Part shown: piece after piece, positions 3,006-10,639 of the stretch
Layout: every line of letters begins with the position of its first letter
How positions within the stretch are numbered: position 1 is the first letter of the stretch
NCBI GenBank assembly: GCA_025937895.1
Contig: JAICQL010000013.1
Location: 1-64,000, forward strand
Length of the DNA stretch: 64,000 nt
From: Polyangiaceae bacterium
Lineage (GTDB): Bacteria; Myxococcota_A; Polyangia; Polyangiales; Polyangiaceae
Direction of reading: 5' to 3'
Translations under genes and position numbers: made by a program
The notes under the pieces: model-generated
Database searches by the model: none
Told to the model about the DNA's origin: nothing
Seen by the model: only the letters and a program-made list of their open reading frames with translations

Positions 3006-5447
3006 TCAGGCAGGCTCCAGTCGAGGGAAAATCATATTCAGGGTGGTTCCGGGTTGCAATGGCACAGGCGGCTCGGGGTCGGGCGCCGGTTCTGGCGCCA
3101 GGGCGTGATCGGTGGAAACGGACTGGAAAACCAAGTCCATGCCGTCCTCCTGCCGAATGGGTGGAATGGGTGGAATGGGTGGAATGGCAGGGGGCTCGGA
3201 CAGTGCAGCACCTTCCGCCGCGCCAGCGAGGAGCGCCGCGCGCTCAAAGAGCGCCCAGCGAAAGAAGTAGTGGCCCTCCCGGACGAAGATGTAGCCGCGC
3301 AATGAGGCCGGCGCGTCTGCCCGGATGCCCTCGAGGACGGCTGGAAGCTCGCTCTCTCTGCCGGGCGCGATGCGGAAGACGCGCAGCTCGGTCGTGCCCG
3401 CCTGCCAGTCCGCGGGTAGGTCGAGCAGCGAGCAGGGCGCGCGCTCTTTCACCTGCTCTTGCCGCTCTGGCCGCCAGGGCGCCGCAAACGCCGAGGATGA
3501 CCCGGGGAACTGAAAGATGGAGCCGTGCATTGCCGCGTACCGGCCGCCGGTCGGGGTCTTCCTCGCGTCTTCGTATGCGCGCCGGGAGCGATAGAAGACC
3601 AGCGCCACCTCCGACGGCAGGTCCGCACCCAAATCGCCGGGCGGTGTTTCGCCGCGGGATGTTTCGCCCGGGCGTGCTTCGCCGGGGCGTGCTTCGCCCG
3701 GGCGTGCGTCACCCGGCAGCAGCTCAGCCGGCAGCAGCGTTGGCAAATACGCCACCAGCTGGAGCGGCGCCATCATGCGCACCGTGGCCGGCACGAACAC
3801 CCGCTGCAGCTCTTCCACGAATTGCTGCTGCGTGATGTCCGCGCGGCGGCGCCCCAGCCAGACGCGCACCGCAGTGAGCGGGCCCGTTGCTGGAGCCTCC
3901 TTGCCCAGCAAGCGCGCCAGGCGCAGCGTGGCCTCGTTGGAGGCGACGGCGCCAGACACCCCCGCCCCCGGCTGGTGCTCATAGGCGCAGCCGCCGGGCA
4001 AGCTCCAGGTCGTGCAGAAGCGGCAGCCGCCGGGCGCGCGCCCCAGCCGCTGCCCGTCGAACGACAGGTTTCCACGCTGGATCTCCTCGAACAGCGCGCC
4101 AGCGAGCATGCTCACCGGATCCATGAAGCGCGGCGCCAGGGCAGCGCGCGCGGGCTCGCTCAGCGGAGCGGAGGGCGAGCGGGGATCGAGCCTGAGCAGC
4201 ACCCCCGTGGTTTCACCGTCCGTGACCACCCAGCTCAGGTGAGGCGCCAGCCGCCGTGCGTCCTCCGCATGCTCCCGCTCGAAGTCGCGCCACGCGAACA
4301 GGGTCATGCGCACCCCTGGCTCGTAGTTGTCCGAGTAAGAGAAGTGGGGCGCGCACAAAATCCGCGCATGCAGCGAGACGCCCTCGTCCTCGAGATCGAG
4401 GTAGGTAGCGCGCGACGTCGTCTCGCTCAGCAACTGGAACGCGTCGCGGGCCTTCCACGCCGCCAGCCAGGGCAGCGCAGGCGCGTGATCCGCGAACATC
4501 GAGAGCGCAGAGTTGCCGACGAAGAGCAGTACGCTCGGCTGGCTCTGCAACACCTGGCGCAGCGCGAAGCGCCGGTCGCCTGCGCAGTTCTGGCTGATGC
4601 GCCGGGTAGGAATGTCGAAGCTCTTCCGCGACCATCCGGGGGAAGCGCAGGCGATCATGTCACCTTGCGAGACGTCTTCACCGATGCGCAAGCTGGGCTC
4701 GCTGCAGCCGAGCCGCGCCTCCAGCGCCCGCAGCACGGGCTCAAAACGCTGGTAGTACCCCACCGGCACGGCGTTGAGAGCCAGCCCCGCCTCCCCATCG
4801 GAGCCCTGCGCCGCGCTCGCGTCGAGAAAGCCCGCGAGCGGCTCACCCTGCTGAAATGGCGCGCCTCTCCGCGCCAGGACGACGGGCAGGCGATCGGCCG
4901 CCCACGCGAGCTCCAAGGAGGTAACCGCGCCGCCCTCCAGCTCCAGCTCGATCTGCAGCCAGCGATGCGAGTCACTGCGCACGACAGCCCGCGTCTTGCC
5001 CGCGGCAGGAGCGAGCAGACGCCCTTCGGGCAGCAGCGGCTGGGCCTGGGCCGACACCTCCTGCGTGACGCCTCGGTGGCGATAGTAGTAGGCGTAGTGC
5101 GCCTCAGTCGCGAAGCTGGGATAGGTGTAGCGCGCGGCTTCCGGGGTGGCGAAGAAGCCGCCCATGTTGGGGTTGATGCCCAGGGTCATGATCGGCGCCT
5201 TGCGACAGCCGTGCAACACCGCCGGCGGGATCTGGCCGGCGCCGCGCCCCTGCGCATCCAGCCATTTCTCTTCGCCGAGCGGCTGCCGCAGCTGCGGCAG
5301 GCGGCGCACCTCTGCCGGAAAGGGCGTGGCGAAGTCGAACGTCGGGAACGGCCCGTACGGCGGGATAGGTCCCCAGAACCAGCTGCACGCGCGGCAGCTG
5401 CGCGTCTCGCGCACCAGCGCCACCTCGGTTGCTTCGCTCGCCGTCAC
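3006..5447 (-). CDS. 813-aa protein with uracil-DNA-glycosylase-like signatures
   Basis: A longer open frame reaches 5585, but GTG 5447 overlaps the upstream stop as GTGA and is the likely start. I do not recognise the full-length family. Three spaced motifs recall the UDG superfamily: LGINPNMGGF (about 89-98), a PSVLLFVGNSAL stretch (304-315) and APHFSYS (366-372). A CxxC (C18, C21) and a C267-C288 pair resemble the four-cysteine layout of Fe-S UDGs. About 200 residues separate the first two motifs, which would be a large insertion. A second cysteine cluster (C475, C478, C487) lies further on. The C-terminal third has low-complexity linkers (RPGEA and PPI repeats). Glycosylase activity is an inference only. 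It is translationally coupled to the GDPD-like gene. Confidence 0.5.
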   Translation of the reverse strand: MTASEATEVALVRETRSCRACSWFWGPIPPYGPFPTFDFATPFPAEVRRLPQLRQPLGEEKWLDAQGRGAGQIPPAVLHGCRKAPIMTLGINPNMGGFFATPEAARYTYPSFATEAHYAYYYRHRGVTQEVSAQAQPLLPEGRLLAPAAGKTRAVVRSDSHRWLQIELELEGGAVTSLELAWAADRLPVVLARRGAPFQQGEPLAGFLDASAAQGSDGEAGLALNAVPVGYYQRFEPVLRALEARLGCSEPSLRIGEDVSQGDMIACASPGWSRKSFDIPTRRISQNCAGDRRFALRQVLQSQPSVLLFVGNSALSMFADHAPALPWLAAWKARDAFQLLSETTSRATYLDLEDEGVSLHARILCAPHFSYSDNYEPGVRMTLFAWRDFEREHAEDARRLAPHLSWVVTDGETTGVLLRLDPRSPSAPLSEPARAALAPRFMDPVSMLAGALFEEIQRGNLSFDGQRLGRAPGGCRFCTTWSLPGGCAYEHQPGAGVSGAVASNEATLRLARLLGKEAPATGPLTAVRVWLGRRRADITQQQFVEELQRVFVPATVRMMAPLQLVAYLPTLLPAELLPGDARPGEARPGEARPGETSRGETPPGDLGADLPSEVALVFYRSRRAYEDARKTPTGGRYAAMHGSIFQFPGSSSAFAAPWRPERQEQVKERAPCSLLDLPADWQAGTTELRVFRIAPGRESELPAVLEGIRADAPASLRGYIFVREGHYFFRWALFERAALLAGAAEGAALSEPPAIPPIPPIPPIRQEDGMDLVFQSVSTDHALAPEPAPDPEPPVPLQPGTTLNMIFPRLEPA
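3155..3190. repeat. 9-bp in-frame tandem repeat
   Basis: About four copies of gaatgggtg. They encode the IPPIPPI stretch near the C-terminus of the 813-aa protein on the minus strand. Confidence 0.9.
3646..3720. repeat. 15-bp in-frame imperfect tandem repeat
   Basis: Four to five diverged copies of gcttcgcccgggcgt. They encode an ARPGE-type linker in the 813-aa protein on the minus strand. Confidence 0.85.
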
Positions 5448-7003
5448 GGTTGCCTCAGCTCGAAGGAGTGAAACAGCACCTCGTTCGCCGGCAACTCCTG
5501 CAGGGCACCCTTGTGCCAGTGCTTGGCCGCGAGCCGTAGAAAGACCTCCCCGGGCATCGCCGCCACGCTGGCGGCGCCGCTGCACACCCAGTGGCCGCCG
5601 CTGGTCTCGTCGGCGTAGTAGCTGGCGAACGCGGCACCCGTACGCACCAGCCGCAGCGCGCCGCTGGCGCGCGCTTTGCCAGAGCCCACGTCGCGGGTGT
5701 ACTGATTGAACATGTTCGCCGAGGCGTGCGACCAGTCCGCCAGGATGCGGGTCAGGTTGCTGGAGTTGTTCCAGCCGAAGCGATAGCCGTCGTCCTCGTC
5801 GCGCTCGCTGCTGGCGTACGGAGCCGCACCGTGCACGTCAAACACCAGGTTGGGCTCGAGCGCCAGCGTGCTGCCGGTCTGCCAGGAGAGCCGCGGCGGA
5901 TCGATGGCGATCGCTGCCAGCTCAAAGGTGGTGCCCTGGGTCGGGTTGGAGACGGAGAACCCTGCCGTGGCGTCAAAGTCACCGCTGAAGGCCACCCGGG
6001 TGACGGCGCCGCCGCCCGAATACTCTCGCCCCTGGTGGATGTGGATGGCCAGCCCGCGCGGGCTGGCGCTCAGCTCGGTTTCGCCGTTGTTCCGCGAGTA
6101 GCCCGCTGCCCAGTGCTGGGTATCGAGGCGCTCTGCTTGCAGCGAGTCCTGAAACACCACGGCTCGCGGTCGCACCACCGCCAGCGCCGGAAACACGGCC
6201 CCGGTCACCACCGTGACAGGTTGGGCGCTCGGCTCCGTGCTCGAGCCAGCGAGTGCCCCTGCCAGCGAGCCCGCACCCGGGGTGCGCAGGCCTTGCAGCA
6301 GCTTCACCGGGAACGCCAGGCGCCCGGGCGGCGGCAGCAGCCAGCTCGATAGCCCGGCGGCGCTCGCCCTCTGGCACAGCTCCAGCGCCTCGTCTCCGCC
6401 CCCGCTGAGCGCGACCCCGCGCGCGAGCTTGCCCGCGATGGCCTGCGCCAGCGCAGCATTGCGCTCCGCCCCGTCGAGCCGGGCAACCCATTGTATGGTG
6501 CTGGGTATGGTGCTGGGTACGGTGTTGGTTGCGCCAGGCTGCTGCAACAGCTCGAGCGGCAGCTCCACCGCTACTCGCGCGGCCAGACCGAAGCGCTCGA
6601 GCACCTGCGCCACGCGCTCCCGCTGCGCAGGCGAGGCGGCGGCGTCGAGCCGCAGCAACAGCTGGGTCCGCCTGCCGAACGAGCGCAGCACGTCGTCGAG
6701 CAGCGGGTAGCGCAGCGCCGGGCGGTCGCGCGCGGGGGCCCAGGGCGAGGCCACGTCCGCGCTGATGACAGCCCCGCTTTCATCGGTGCTACCGGGCATG
6801 AACCGTCCGCCAGCGTCCACGTCCACGGGCGCTGCCGAGCCGAGCTGCGGAGCTGCGCAGTACAGCTTGCCATCGCTCTCGCGTACGTGGAGCGCCAGGC
6901 CATCCACGCCCGCGGCGAGCGCGGACCAGTAGGCCACCAGTGTATCCTGCGGCGCGCTCAGTGCGTCGCCGCCCAGTGCGAAGATCTTTACCAAGGCCGG
7001 CAC
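5444..7003 (-). CDS. degenerate GDPD-like barrel fused to a lectin-like beta-sandwich
   Basis: The start is GTG 7003 and the product is 519 aa with no signal peptide. The N-terminal half reads like a glycerophosphodiester phosphodiesterase barrel (PQDTLVAYWSALAAGVDGLA, then SDGKLYC; later LLLRLDA, QWVARLD and LPPPGRLAFPV). The expected HRG near the start is LGG, and the E-x-D metal site after GVD is replaced by LALH, so a classical GDPD reaction is unlikely. Residues about 300-519 look like a concanavalin-like or DUF1349-like sandwich (VVFQDSLQAERLDTQHW, FDATAGFSV, LRLVRTGAAFASYYADE). It is the first gene of the minus operon and couples by GTGA to the 813-aa gene. A ligand-sensing or carbohydrate-binding role is plausible. 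Confidence 0.6.
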   Translation of the reverse strand: MPALVKIFALGGDALSAPQDTLVAYWSALAAGVDGLALHVRESDGKLYCAAPQLGSAAPVDVDAGGRFMPGSTDESGAVISADVASPWAPARDRPALRYPLLDDVLRSFGRRTQLLLRLDAAASPAQRERVAQVLERFGLAARVAVELPLELLQQPGATNTVPSTIPSTIQWVARLDGAERNAALAQAIAGKLARGVALSGGGDEALELCQRASAAGLSSWLLPPPGRLAFPVKLLQGLRTPGAGSLAGALAGSSTEPSAQPVTVVTGAVFPALAVVRPRAVVFQDSLQAERLDTQHWAAGYSRNNGETELSASPRGLAIHIHQGREYSGGGAVTRVAFSGDFDATAGFSVSNPTQGTTFELAAIAIDPPRLSWQTGSTLALEPNLVFDVHGAAPYASSERDEDDGYRFGWNNSSNLTRILADWSHASANMFNQYTRDVGSGKARASGALRLVRTGAAFASYYADETSGGHWVCSGAASVAAMPGEVFLRLAAKHWHKGALQELPANEVLFHSFELRQP

Positions 7004-7185
7004 CTCTCCCCGCGCACCCCGAGCAGGGCGCGGCTCAACATTGGGCAGACGTTGGGGGGTACGCTTTGTCGCACGGCATTCGTACGGCTCACCTCTACGA
7101 GCAACCCTCTTGCAACGAACGGCCAGATCATGATGACCTGCAGAGTGAGGTGGTTCGGTGGGCCCCTTGCAAAAGGAGGACTGGC
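7004..7185. promoter_or_regulatory. divergent intergenic region of the MBL-caspase locus
   Basis: The 182 bp separate two outward-facing operons and must hold promoters for both. I see no convincing -35/-10 pair or long dyad. A strong ribosome site (AAAAGGAGGA, 7171-7180) precedes the plus-strand TTG start. Confidence 0.5.
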
Positions 7186-8250
7186 TTGCTCTCCCTGACC
7201 CTGCTCCCCGCTAATGAGGGTGACTGCTTGTGGCTGGAATATGGCGGCGCACGGAAGCGCCGCGTCCTGATCGACTGCGGCCGCAAGAGCACCTACCGCA
7301 CGCTGAGCAAACGCATCGACGAGCTGCCCGCTGATGAGCGCAGCTTCGAGCTGCTCGTGATCAGCCACATCGATCGCGATCACATCGAGGGCGCGCTCGA
7401 GCTGATGGCGGATGAGGAGCTGGACGTCAGCTTTCGCGACATCTGGTTCAATGGCTACAAACACCTCGAGCAAGCGACGGGCGAGTCCTTCGGCGTGGTG
7501 CAGGGAGAGGCGCTGACGGCGTATCTCTCACAGCCCGACGTGCCGTGGAACGAGTGGTTCGCTCGTGGTCCCGTGCTGTGGCAAGAGGGCGAGCCGCTGC
7601 CAGAGGTGACCCTGGCAGGTGGTCTGAAGCTGACGTTGCTCTCCCCCACCCTGCCGAAGCTGGCCAAGCTGGGTAGAGAATGGCTCGAGGTGTGTAAGAA
7701 AGAGGGTCTGGTGCCGGGGCACCCTCCCGAGCCGGAGCCCCCGGGAGAGGAGCGCTTCGGCCCTCCCGACGTGGAGCGGCTCGCCCGGGAAGAGTGGCCG
7801 ATCGACACGGCGGAGGCGAACGGTAGCAGCATCGCCTTCGTGGCGGAGTACGAGGGCAAGCGCGTGCTGTTTGCCGCCGACGCTCATCCCGACGTGCTGG
7901 AGCGGGCGCTCCGGCACCTGACAGGCGACGCCTCGGCCGTTCACTTCGATGCCGTGAAGGTCTCGCACCACGGCAGCGCACACAACACCACGCGCGAGTT
8001 GCTGGAGTTGATCGAGTGCGACACCTGGCTGTTCTCGACCAACGGCTCCTACTTCCATCATCCGTCCGACGTCGCGGTCGCCAAGATCATCAAACACGGC
8101 AACGCCGGCGGCAGGCGCAAGCGGCTGGTCTTCAACTATCGCTCGGATGAGTCGGAGGTCTGGAACACGGCCTCACTCAAGAAAAAGTGGGGCTACGCCA
8201 CCGTCTACCCGCCGGCGGCCACACCCGGCTTGCTCACTCTCCCACTCTAG
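7186..8250 (+). CDS. metallo-beta-lactamase-fold hydrolase (ComEC-like)
   Basis: The frame is open from 6940, but AAAAGGAGGA ends 5 nt before TTG 7186 and homology begins there, giving 354 aa. The metal motif SHIDRDH (H61, D63, D65, H66) is the H-x-D-x-D-H variant typical of ComEC-like MBL proteins. A later aspartate lies in FAADAHPD, and SHHGSAHN supplies further ligands. So the metal site looks intact. Known members hydrolyse nucleic acids, nucleotides or other esters; the substrate here cannot be read. There is no signal peptide, so it is cytoplasmic. The stop is 14 nt before the caspase gene, so the two are almost certainly co-expressed. Confidence 0.9.
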   Translation: MLSLTLLPANEGDCLWLEYGGARKRRVLIDCGRKSTYRTLSKRIDELPADERSFELLVISHIDRDHIEGALELMADEELDVSFRDIWFNGYKHLEQATGESFGVVQGEALTAYLSQPDVPWNEWFARGPVLWQEGEPLPEVTLAGGLKLTLLSPTLPKLAKLGREWLEVCKKEGLVPGHPPEPEPPGEERFGPPDVERLAREEWPIDTAEANGSSIAFVAEYEGKRVLFAADAHPDVLERALRHLTGDASAVHFDAVKVSHHGSAHNTTRELLELIECDTWLFSTNGSYFHHPSDVAVAKIIKHGNAGGRRKRLVFNYRSDESEVWNTASLKKKWGYATVYPPAATPGLLTLPL

Positions 8251-8264
8251 CAGCAGCACCCATC

Positions 8265-9407
8265 ATGGCCTTAGTCTTCGAGAGTGACGCGTACCGCTCG
8301 GACCCCGCTCGCCCGGGCACCCATGCCCTGGTGGTCGGCATCGGCGAATATCCCTATCTCCTGGGCGGCAGCCACGAGCGGCAGGAGGTCGTGGGCGAGC
8401 TCGCGCTGAAGCAGCTCACCTCGTCACCAGCTTCGGCGCGCGCCGTGTGTGACTGGCTGCTGGGCACGGGCACCTTCGCAGGGGTGGCCAATGCGGGCCT
8501 GCACAATCCAGCGGCGCCGCTGGCCACGGTGGACGTGCTGCTCAGCGCCGCCGATGATCACACGGACGTGCCCAGCGCGGAGCGCCTGGTGTCGGCGATT
8601 CTGGACTGGAAGGACCGCTGCGACACGAGCGAGGCCAACGTCGCCTTCCTGTATGTCTGCGGCCATGGCTTGCAGCTGACCGATCTGGTCCTGTTGGCCA
8701 GCGACTTCGGCGATCCTCACCATCGCGGCAACCTGTGGAAAGGCGCGCTGAGCCTGGACTCGATCCACCAGGGCATGGCCAAGTGTAAGGCGCGCCAGCA
8801 GTTCCTGTTTTTTGACTGCTGCCGTGCCTATCAGACTCAGCTACGAGTGCGGGTTGCCACGGGCGTCCAGGCCTTCGACGACCTGGTGGACGATCCGCGG
8901 CGCCACCACATCGCCGCGTACGCCACTCTGGAGGGCGAATACGCCTTTGGCGCCATCCATCAGCCTTCATACTTCACGGCCGCGCTGCTGGATGGGCTGA
9001 GCGGCTTCGGCTCGGAGCCGGGAAACGGGGGCTGGGAGGTCACGAACGGCTCGCTCTCGCGTGCGCTGCACAAACTCATGGAGTTCGACACCAAGACCAC
9101 GCCCAACCGCCAGATGGTGGAGGGCCGCTTGACGGGAGACGCTGTGCTCCACCGGCTGCGGGAGCGGCCCAAGGTGAAGCTCCGGGTGGAGTGCCAGCCC
9201 GCCCACCGTATGGGCGGCGCCACCTTCAGCATCACTTGCGCCGCCGAGTCCTACACGCATCGCGGGCAGGATGGGCCCTTCACGAGCCTCATCAGCCCGG
9301 GCGAGTGGGCGTTCGAGCTGCGACACGATGACGCCAACCTGAGCCCACAGCACGATCTCGTGTTGTGTGTTCCTCCCACGTTTCCCAAGTTGTTCCAGGT
9401 GGTGTGA
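8265..9407 (+). CDS. caspase-family (C14) cysteine protease
   Basis: The start is ATG 8265, giving 380 aa. The caspase fold is seen as HALVVGIGEYPYL (20-32), the catalytic histidine in YVCGHG (H134) and the catalytic cysteine in FFDCCRA (C186 by alignment with D-A-C-R motifs; C185 also present). Both catalytic residues are present, so it should be an active protease. Residues 300-380 form a C-terminal beta-rich extension (KVKLRVECQP, GATFSITC, PGEWAFEL). No death-fold or effector-associated adaptor is visible at the N-terminus, so activation probably depends on a partner, perhaps the next gene, which starts 2 nt after the stop. In known bacterial conflict systems such caspases kill or arrest infected cells. 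Confidence 0.9.
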   Translation: MALVFESDAYRSDPARPGTHALVVGIGEYPYLLGGSHERQEVVGELALKQLTSSPASARAVCDWLLGTGTFAGVANAGLHNPAAPLATVDVLLSAADDHTDVPSAERLVSAILDWKDRCDTSEANVAFLYVCGHGLQLTDLVLLASDFGDPHHRGNLWKGALSLDSIHQGMAKCKARQQFLFFDCCRAYQTQLRVRVATGVQAFDDLVDDPRRHHIAAYATLEGEYAFGAIHQPSYFTAALLDGLSGFGSEPGNGGWEVTNGSLSRALHKLMEFDTKTTPNRQMVEGRLTGDAVLHRLRERPKVKLRVECQPAHRMGGATFSITCAAESYTHRGQDGPFTSLISPGEWAFELRHDDANLSPQHDLVLCVPPTFPKLFQVV

Positions 9408-9409
9408 AC

Positions 9410-10639
9410 ATGGCGCGGATCAGCTTGAGCTTGTTCCTCCCGGTGTCCTCCGGTGAGCGCTTCGTGGCTACCTGGGACATATTGAGCGAGGAGCTGGAGG
9501 TGGTGGCGCGCGGCGCGTTTCTCTCGCGGCAAGAGGTCGACGTGTCGCTGTCTCCAGGCAGCTACTGGGCCCGAATCCTGCTGCCCAGCGGCGAGGTGAG
9601 CTCGCGCAAGTTCAAACTGGACCATGATGCGGCGCACCTCGATCTGCCCTTCATGCCGGCGCAACGGAGCCGTCACGAGTGGCTGAGCTGGGTCACGTTC
9701 AGTGAATCACTGGCCGGCATGGATGAGTCGGCAGCGAGGATCTTCGGTGATTTCTGGGCGCGCAGCTGGACGTTCGAGGGCAGCGGCTGGTTGCTGGACG
9801 AGCAGATCCAGCGGGCAGAGATCCGCCAGGATGAGTCGCTGATGCAGCTGGAGCTCGGACGAGGGCGGGGCCGCCTGTTGGCCTTGCAGCTCGGCGGCCG
9901 CGACATTGCCTCGCGCTTCGTCATCCTGCCCGAGGCGGCACGCATCTTGATCACGCCGGTGACCCTCCCGGGGCAGAGCTCGGCGCGCCCGCACGACATC
10001 GAGCTGCACGTCTCGCTGGAGAGCTCGGTCGCCGATCATCTGGCGCGCTTTCTGACGATGGGCGGGGCGAGTCAGCTCCGCGCGATCGATGTCAGCTTGC
10101 TGAGCGGTGAAGGCATGGCGCTGCTCGAGGGCAAGCTCCGTGACCCGCTGGGCGCGGCGGTCGGCGGCTACTTCCTGTTGCAGCACTCGCAGCCGCCCCC
10201 GCTGGACTGGCTGCAGCGCCTCTCACGGCTTTCGCCCTGGCTGGCAGACAGCGCCATCCTGTATGCGAGCGCGCTGCTGAGGTATCGCGGTCGCGCCGAG
10301 CTGAGCCAGGCGGGTGAGTACCTGCATGCCGCAGCGCAGCGCGGCTACCCGGTGTTGCAGCGCGGCATCGAGATGTTCCTGGATGCGCGGCGCGTGCTCG
10401 TGTCCAGCAAGGTCCCGCTCTCTGCCGAGGTTGAGGCCTACGCCCTGCTGTGCGCGGCCGCGCGGGCCCACGGCACCCGGCAGACGGCCTTCACCACGTT
10501 TTATGGCACGGCGCCGAACGCGCCCGGCGGCGTCCGCCCCGACGCTGATCCCAACGGGCTGCTGGAGCTGAACGCGCAGCCGCGCAGTTATGTGCCAGCC
10601 GCTCAGGCCGAGCGCAGCCTCAATCTCTCCCGTTCCTGA
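9410..10639 (+). CDS. caspase-associated beta-sandwich plus helical-repeat protein, function unknown
   Basis: ATG 9410 has AGGTGG 8 nt upstream. GTG 9404, overlapping the caspase stop, is the alternative. The product is 409 aa. Residues 1-85 look like a small beta-sandwich (ISLSLFLPVSSGERFVATWD, GSYWARILLPSGEV). The middle, roughly 90-230, is unrecognised. From about 240 there is a helical segment with a D-P-x-x-A-x-x-x-x-Y-x-L-L signature (LRDPLGAAVGGYFLLQ) followed by LSRLSPWLADSAILYASALL and TPR-like helices (AGEYLHAAAQRGYPVL). From memory, similar segments sit beside bacterial caspases, but I cannot name a domain. It is the third gene of the MBL-caspase operon and a candidate sensor, adaptor or substrate. 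Confidence 0.7.
   Translation: MARISLSLFLPVSSGERFVATWDILSEELEVVARGAFLSRQEVDVSLSPGSYWARILLPSGEVSSRKFKLDHDAAHLDLPFMPAQRSRHEWLSWVTFSESLAGMDESAARIFGDFWARSWTFEGSGWLLDEQIQRAEIRQDESLMQLELGRGRGRLLALQLGGRDIASRFVILPEAARILITPVTLPGQSSARPHDIELHVSLESSVADHLARFLTMGGASQLRAIDVSLLSGEGMALLEGKLRDPLGAAVGGYFLLQHSQPPPLDWLQRLSRLSPWLADSAILYASALLRYRGRAELSQAGEYLHAAAQRGYPVLQRGIEMFLDARRVLVSSKVPLSAEVEAYALLCAAARAHGTRQTAFTTFYGTAPNAPGGVRPDADPNGLLELNAQPRSYVPAAQAERSLNLSRS

Follow-up and report, generated by a model that had tools for sequence, protein, structure and literature searches.

The locus and its UDG-like gene

The window, by which we mean the whole 64,000-nucleotide stretch of Polyangiaceae DNA that was analysed, carries near its start a minus-strand gene for a protein of 813 amino acids that is probably related, by predicted structure, to the uracil-DNA glycosylases (UDGs). 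The location of this open reading frame (3006-5447), reported in a preliminary description, was borne out when the coordinates were checked, and the positions given there for a GINP motif (residue 90), VGNSA (310), H-x-S (368), a CxxC and a C-x20-C pair are likewise correct. The GTG start at 5447 shares four bases (GTGA) with the stop codon of the gene lying upstream (5444-7003), which encodes a GDPD-like protein; this overlap supports the assigned start and implies that the two genes are probably co-translated. The features of the locus are collected in Table 1.

Table 1. Features of the UDG-like gene and its partner (window coordinates; residue numbers refer to the UDG-like protein)
Feature	Position	Strand	Remarks
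UDG-fold-like protein, 813 aa	3006..5447	-	GTG start, stop included
C-terminal "WRGF" domain, residues about 527-813	3009..3869	-	homologous to a separate gene in relatives
C475-x2-C478-x8-C487, possible second metal site with C81	3987..4025	-	17/17
Motif B equivalent, P367-H368-F-S370	4338..4349	-	P and H 17/17; S 16/17
VGNSA (310-314), strand-loop-helix; sequence varies in the family	4506..4520	-	
C288, fourth cysteine in Fe-S order	4584..4586	-	17/17
GED-x5-M-I-A-C267-x-S-x2-W, equivalent of the UDG NxVKC strand; third cysteine in Fe-S order	4632..4682	-	
Inserted barrel-sandwich-hybrid-like domain, residues about 136-212	4812..5042	-	structural matches
Motif A, G90-I-N-P-N94 (compare GINPG of Mug/TDG)	5166..5180	-	17/17; definitions from PMC10359453
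GCRKAP (80-85); C81 candidate ligand of a second site	5193..5210	-	17/17
C18-x2-C21, first two cysteines in family-4 Fe-S order	5385..5396	-	17/17
GDPD-like protein, probably co-translated partner (GTGA overlap)	5444..7003	-	homologous to GDPD-family genes of L012, L014, L015, L026 and L076

Searches of the window protein against Pfam, NCBIfam, PADLOC, PHROGs and PDB sequences returned no match bearing on function, and no PADLOC model fits either this protein or its GDPD-like neighbour. The C-terminal part of the protein contains in-frame repeats at 3009-3869 (GEARPGEARPG and, closer to the C-terminus, PPIPPIPPI), of which the GEARPGEARPG linker gives rise to false database matches; a Mesorhizobium plasmid match and nearly all matches in other myxobacteria fall on or around this low-complexity linker and were dropped. 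A further tandem repeat (PPSAVPPSAV), at 1-130 of the window, belongs to the C-terminus of a BTAD-type regulator that is cut by the window edge.

Relatives of the UDG-like protein are rare and widely scattered

Sixteen relatives, sharing approximately 30-35% identity with the window protein, were found in the Bacteroidota, Acidobacteriota, Pseudomonadota and Myxococcota. When plasmids were searched by tblastn, a relative was recovered in Burkholderia pyrrocinia, covered over 81% and annotated "GTPase", along with a partial match in Azospirillum argentinense, annotated "amidohydrolase family protein". A profile built from these plasmid relatives located 13 more loci in species genomes, which belong to Hyphomicrobiales, Acidobacteriota, several Bacteroidota, Limnohabitans and one deltaproteobacterium, and an additional relative (L076) is present in a Bacteroidota genome. 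Even when the genomes used as centres are counted, the family occurs in only three of the 395 Bacteroidota genomes, two of the 396 from Acidobacteriota and a single one of the 395 from the Limnohabitans order; no copy was found among 58 genomes related to that of the window, nor in the IMG/VR viral contigs. This rarity, taken together with the spread across phyla and the two plasmid copies, indicates horizontal movement. Phylogenetic analysis divides the family into two subfamilies with strong support, in a tree that is unrooted and has long branches.

The genome from which the window derives encodes a separate, ordinary family-4 UDG, so the gene described here is not its housekeeping repair enzyme. 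A second, partial match to the Pfam UDG family (PF03167) lies elsewhere in the same genome (G000:C283:2202-2471, L059/L078; 28.7 bits).

Conserved motifs and cysteine residues

An alignment of the window protein with its 16 relatives, drawn from at least four phyla, contains numerous residues that are invariant in all 17 sequences: E8, C18, C21, G80-C81-R82-K83-A84-P85, G90-I91-N92-P93-N94, Y121, R123, R125, E257-D258, M264, A266-C267, W272, C288, Q298, Q301, P304, R362, P367-H368, C475, C478 and C487. As these persist across 17 homologs, the motifs are not a product of chance. The GINP sequence of the preliminary description is thus GINPN throughout, and the cysteines of its CxxC and C-x20-C (C267-x20-C288) pairs are retained in every sequence, although the spacing between C18 and C21 is wider (about C-x15-C) in L026, L012 and L076. 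Of the H-x-S motif, the histidine is universal and the serine (S370) is kept in 16 of 17. The VGNSA sequence does not hold up as a signature, since relatives have VVSES, VFSRT and similar residues at this place, although the strand-loop-helix is there.

The invariant residues include eight cysteines, which can be divided into two sets. C18, C21, C267 and C288 stand in the order of the Fe-S ligands of family-4 UDGs, which suggests, as far as residue order is a guide, that an Fe-S cluster may stabilise the protein in a family-4-like manner. The second set comprises C81 and the cluster of cysteines towards the C-terminus that had also been remarked on previously (C475, C478 and C487, again invariant), and these four residues could form a second metal site.

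Predicted fold

Structure prediction and fold comparison had been proposed as a check of the sequence signatures, and the predicted structures align with UDGs. The AlphaFold2 models rest on 14 sequences and their motif loops are of low confidence. The model of residues 1-500 of the window protein is weak (pLDDT 60.9), and its sole long match among the 50 listed is the family-4 UDG of Sulfolobus tokodaii (4zbx; VIA Z 7.9, rmsd 3.2, 153 of 192 residues). The same domain of a Saprospiraceae relative (L021) gave a better model (pLDDT 75.9, pTM 0.77), which aligns end to end with family-4 UDGs, namely the S. tokodaii structures 4zbx (VIA Z 8.9, rmsd 3.3, 170/192 residues) and 4zby (Z 8.7, 176/194) and the Thermus thermophilus enzyme 1ui0 (Z 8.0, 177/192), and then with human TDG (3uo7; Z 8.0, 152/173). 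The models cover 80-95% of the UDG chain, and 12 of the 13 listed matches to the L021 model with at least 140 aligned residues belong to the UDG superfamily, although Z scores of 8-9 are only moderate values. Most other listed matches span 60-75 residues and pair the inserted domain (see below) with RNA polymerase subunits and cytochrome f. A further match of the L021 model is to residues 34-205 of 9qhs_A (Z 7.5, 144 residues), an N-terminal portion of the DNA polymerase of phage phiLo.

Foldseek searches with both models gave no match that was significant by E-value, and sequence-only evidence for membership of the superfamily is weak. PF03167 matches one relative (L015) from the MVAC strand to strand 3, with an E-value of 0.0025 and 18.3 bits against a curated cut-off of 24.3; it does not match the window protein, and no family member reaches the cut-off, which we read as marking the reach of detection and not as defining the superfamily. 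No relative was found in the PDB with the family profile. A profile search against family 4 had also been put forward as a check: when the family was compared by hhalign with 30 family-4 UDGs, C267 and C288 came into register with the family-4 cysteines, but the comparison as a whole was not significant, 48 of 200 column shuffles scoring as high. The motif order is that of the superfamily, with a GxxP-type motif A loop after strand 1 and a motif B histidine loop after strand 4, and on the strength of the models it is likely that the first 500 or so residues adopt the UDG fold.

The core carries two additional domains. The preliminary description had interpreted the spacing of about 200 residues between its first two motifs as an insertion, and a separable domain is indeed predicted in this gap: some 75 of the residues, lying between motif A and the MVAC strand, are modelled as a barrel-sandwich-like unit that matches RNA polymerase beta and the small domain of cytochrome f over 62-75 residues (Z 7-8.4). 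This domain is missing from the Azospirillum (L012) and deltaproteobacterial (L026) relatives, and is therefore either a true insertion or has been lost in those two. In relatives, the C-terminal "WRGF" domain corresponds to a stand-alone protein encoded 3' of the gene, often as two tandem copies, and in L014 and L015 it is fused behind an amidohydrolase. The Azospirillum gene (L012:9800-12616) encodes a single protein in which the UDG-like domain is itself fused to an amidohydrolase.

Comparison with known glycosylases

The family-4 UDGs (4zbx/4zby, 1ui0; TIGR00758) share the predicted core fold over nearly its full length and have the same order of elements (CxxC, motif A, C, C, motif B), the order of their four Fe-S cysteines being matched by C18, C21, C267 and C288 in 17/17. 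However, motif A of family 4 is GE(A/G)PG (PMC10359453), in contrast to GINPN in all 17 sequences here, motif B is HPS rather than PHFS, and TIGR00758 gave no match to the family. Unlike family 4, the present proteins also possess the insert of about 75 residues and a second set of four cysteines, and the window protein has the C-terminal domain. Both the GEQPG motif and the KRRIH loop of UdgX (PMC10359453) are absent from the window protein. Motif A with its asparagine (GINP) is common to the Mug/TDG enzymes, and TDG is the next best fold match, but motif B of that group is MPSSSAR (PMC10359453) as opposed to PHFSY. The Fe-S-type cysteines, insert and C-terminal domain seen here are found in neither Mug/TDG nor SMUG1. 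SMUG1 employs an Asn and His catalytic pair, a combination that resembles Asn92 and His368. Since the predicted fold and motif order are those of the superfamily whereas the defining motifs of family 4, of UdgX and of Mug/TDG are each unmatched, we assign these proteins, on predicted structure, to a distinct and so far unnamed family within the known UDG superfamily. This agrees with the earlier suggestion of an insertion-bearing UDG-fold family with Fe-S-type cysteines.

Gene neighbourhood

In the subfamily to which the window belongs (the window, L012, L014, L015, L026 and L076), the UDG-like gene is clustered with a GDPD-like gene at all six loci. The homologs in L012, L026 and L076 score as GDPD; the window representative has no Pfam match and, by eye, seems to have lost the usual catalytic motifs, so that it may be a pseudoenzyme. 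Proteases are encoded close by at five of the six loci. The window and L076 have a caspase, L014 has a thermolysin-like HEFGH protein of which L015 carries a homolog, and L012 has subtilases. Those of the window, L014 and L015 are each paired with an MBL nuclease-like protein, for which the best PADLOC model is LmuA. The window pair belongs to a plus-strand row (7060-10639) that is divergent from the GDPD/UDG-like pair. Its MBL protein scores 238 bits with LmuA and 230 bits with the NCBIfam model Avs1a, its caspase shows GHG and DCC motifs, and the row is completed by a third, unknown gene; the caspase that had been noted as a neighbour is genuine (8265-9407; Peptidase_C14, 7.7e-9). L015 also encodes a UNG-type UDG (PF03167, 2.9e-7) with homologs in L014 and L012, these genes (L015:4241-5341, L014:5907-6833 and L012:2618-3715) placing two UDG-fold proteins in one cluster. 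No relative of this UNG-type neighbour, or of the PNP-like domain described below, was found in the window's own genome, in searches run without a positive control.

In the other subfamily the UDG-like domain is fused to, or adjoins, a PNP-like nucleosidase domain, and in many members DNase II, a metallophosphoesterase and a ferritin-like protein are encoded in the same gene row. Tyrosinase is a neighbour here too, and across the family as a whole a ferritin-like PF12902 protein and a GMC oxidoreductase also occur nearby. The Burkholderia cassette (L011:18709-22162) adjoins RebB R-body genes, to which BLAST matches occur in none of the other loci. Such neighbours (ferritin-like, tyrosinase, R-body) do not resemble classic phage defence.

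Possible function

From conservation, predicted fold, gene neighbourhood and rarity, we infer catalysis, a cluster type, a substrate and a role in defence along the following lines. The first 500 residues would constitute a divergent UDG-superfamily domain working as a base-excising glycosylase, in which Asn92 of motif A would position the attacking water and His368 support departure of the base; the invariance of both residues is what would be expected for a monofunctional glycosylase of the SMUG1/TDG type. C18, C21, C267 and C288 would bind an Fe-S cluster as in family 4, C81 with C475, C478 and C487 may hold a second metal site, and the barrel-sandwich and "WRGF" domains would be additions, probably for binding of a partner or substrate. 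The protein would be made together with the GDPD-like protein and belong to a rare cassette that has moved horizontally and that also encodes nucleases, a nucleosidase, phosphodiesterases and a protease. The neighbourhood suggests an attack on DNA, and the most likely task would be the removal from foreign DNA of bases that are unusual or modified, leaving abasic sites that block it or expose it to partner nucleases, as with Brig1 and Brig3.

We consider base excision by the UDG-like domain plausible, with the balance somewhat in its favour, and a role in defence or conflict is our leading guess, albeit one that falls a little short of an even chance. The combined reading, of a base-excising enzyme of a rare mobile cassette that attacks foreign DNA, is evenly poised. 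A more elaborate version, in which a protein with an insert and two sites for metal or Fe-S clusters serves a mobile immune or conflict cassette as the effector that attacks DNA, its base excision being linked to a nuclease activated by a protease, is doubtful.

The main rival to defence is scavenging or small-molecule metabolism, whereby a UDG-fold enzyme acts on small molecules or free nucleotides, for example in a natural-product pathway or in a proposed scavenging order of DNase II, phosphodiesterase, nucleosidase and amidohydrolase. The PNP-like domain fused to or beside the UDG-like domain, the direct fusion to an amidohydrolase in Azospirillum, and the nearby ferritin-like PF12902, GMC oxidoreductase and tyrosinase genes are all consistent with such a role, but pairs of proteases and MBL nucleases recur beside the GDPD-type subfamily, and extreme rarity with spread across phyla is unusual for a metabolic pathway; we regard this alternative as rather unlikely. 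It is less probable still that the protein is a non-catalytic or DNA- or protein-binding UDG fold, with structural Fe-S or Zn sites, that senses damaged or modified DNA and signals to the neighbouring protease and nuclease. Its large added domains, the adjoining caspase, thermolysin-like or subtilisin-like proteases and the apparently degenerate GDPD-like partner in the window would fit a sensor, whereas the invariance of the motif A asparagine and motif B histidine in 17/17 sequences from four phyla argues for catalysis. Finally, the protein might be an unrelated Rossmann-like metalloprotein whose motifs are coincidental, as neither profile comparison nor Foldseek gave a significant link to UDGs; against this, the long structural matches are almost all to UDGs and extend over most of their length, the orders of the cysteines and of the motifs both agree with UDGs, and L015 has a Pfam UDG match, which together make this explanation very improbable.

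Possible relationship to immune systems and significance

For the preferred reading, a base-excising enzyme directed at foreign DNA, precedents exist. Brig1 and Brig3 are anti-phage glycosylases of the UDG superfamily that make abasic sites in phage DNA (PMC11078745, PMC13160076). Like the present family they lie outside the repair families; the best Dali match of Brig1 (Z 9.2; PMC11078745) is the same S. tokodaii UDG as that of the L021 model. Immune systems in which an MBL nuclease is gated by a protease, the canu caspase-nuclease system among them, are described in PMC12799240. The MBL and caspase pair of the window resembles a canu-type locus, and the MBL and thermolysin-like pairs of L014 and L015 resemble the gated modules. 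The passages of PMC12799240 on these systems mention no UDG-like component, and a pathway shared with the UDG-like protein would be suggested by gene neighbourhood.

The public records of the Burkholderia and Azospirillum relatives label them "GTPase" or "amidohydrolase". DNA glycosylases have long been regarded as repair enzymes, but with Brig1 and Brig3 proteins of the UDG fold proved able to serve as weapons against the DNA of phages (PMC11078745, PMC13160076). A deep, unannotated branch that combines family-4-like cysteines and a TDG-like motif A with a neighbourhood of nucleases, phosphodiesterases and proteases would widen this theme, and raises the questions of whether the protein removes bases from modified DNA and whether the neighbouring protease or nuclease depends on it.
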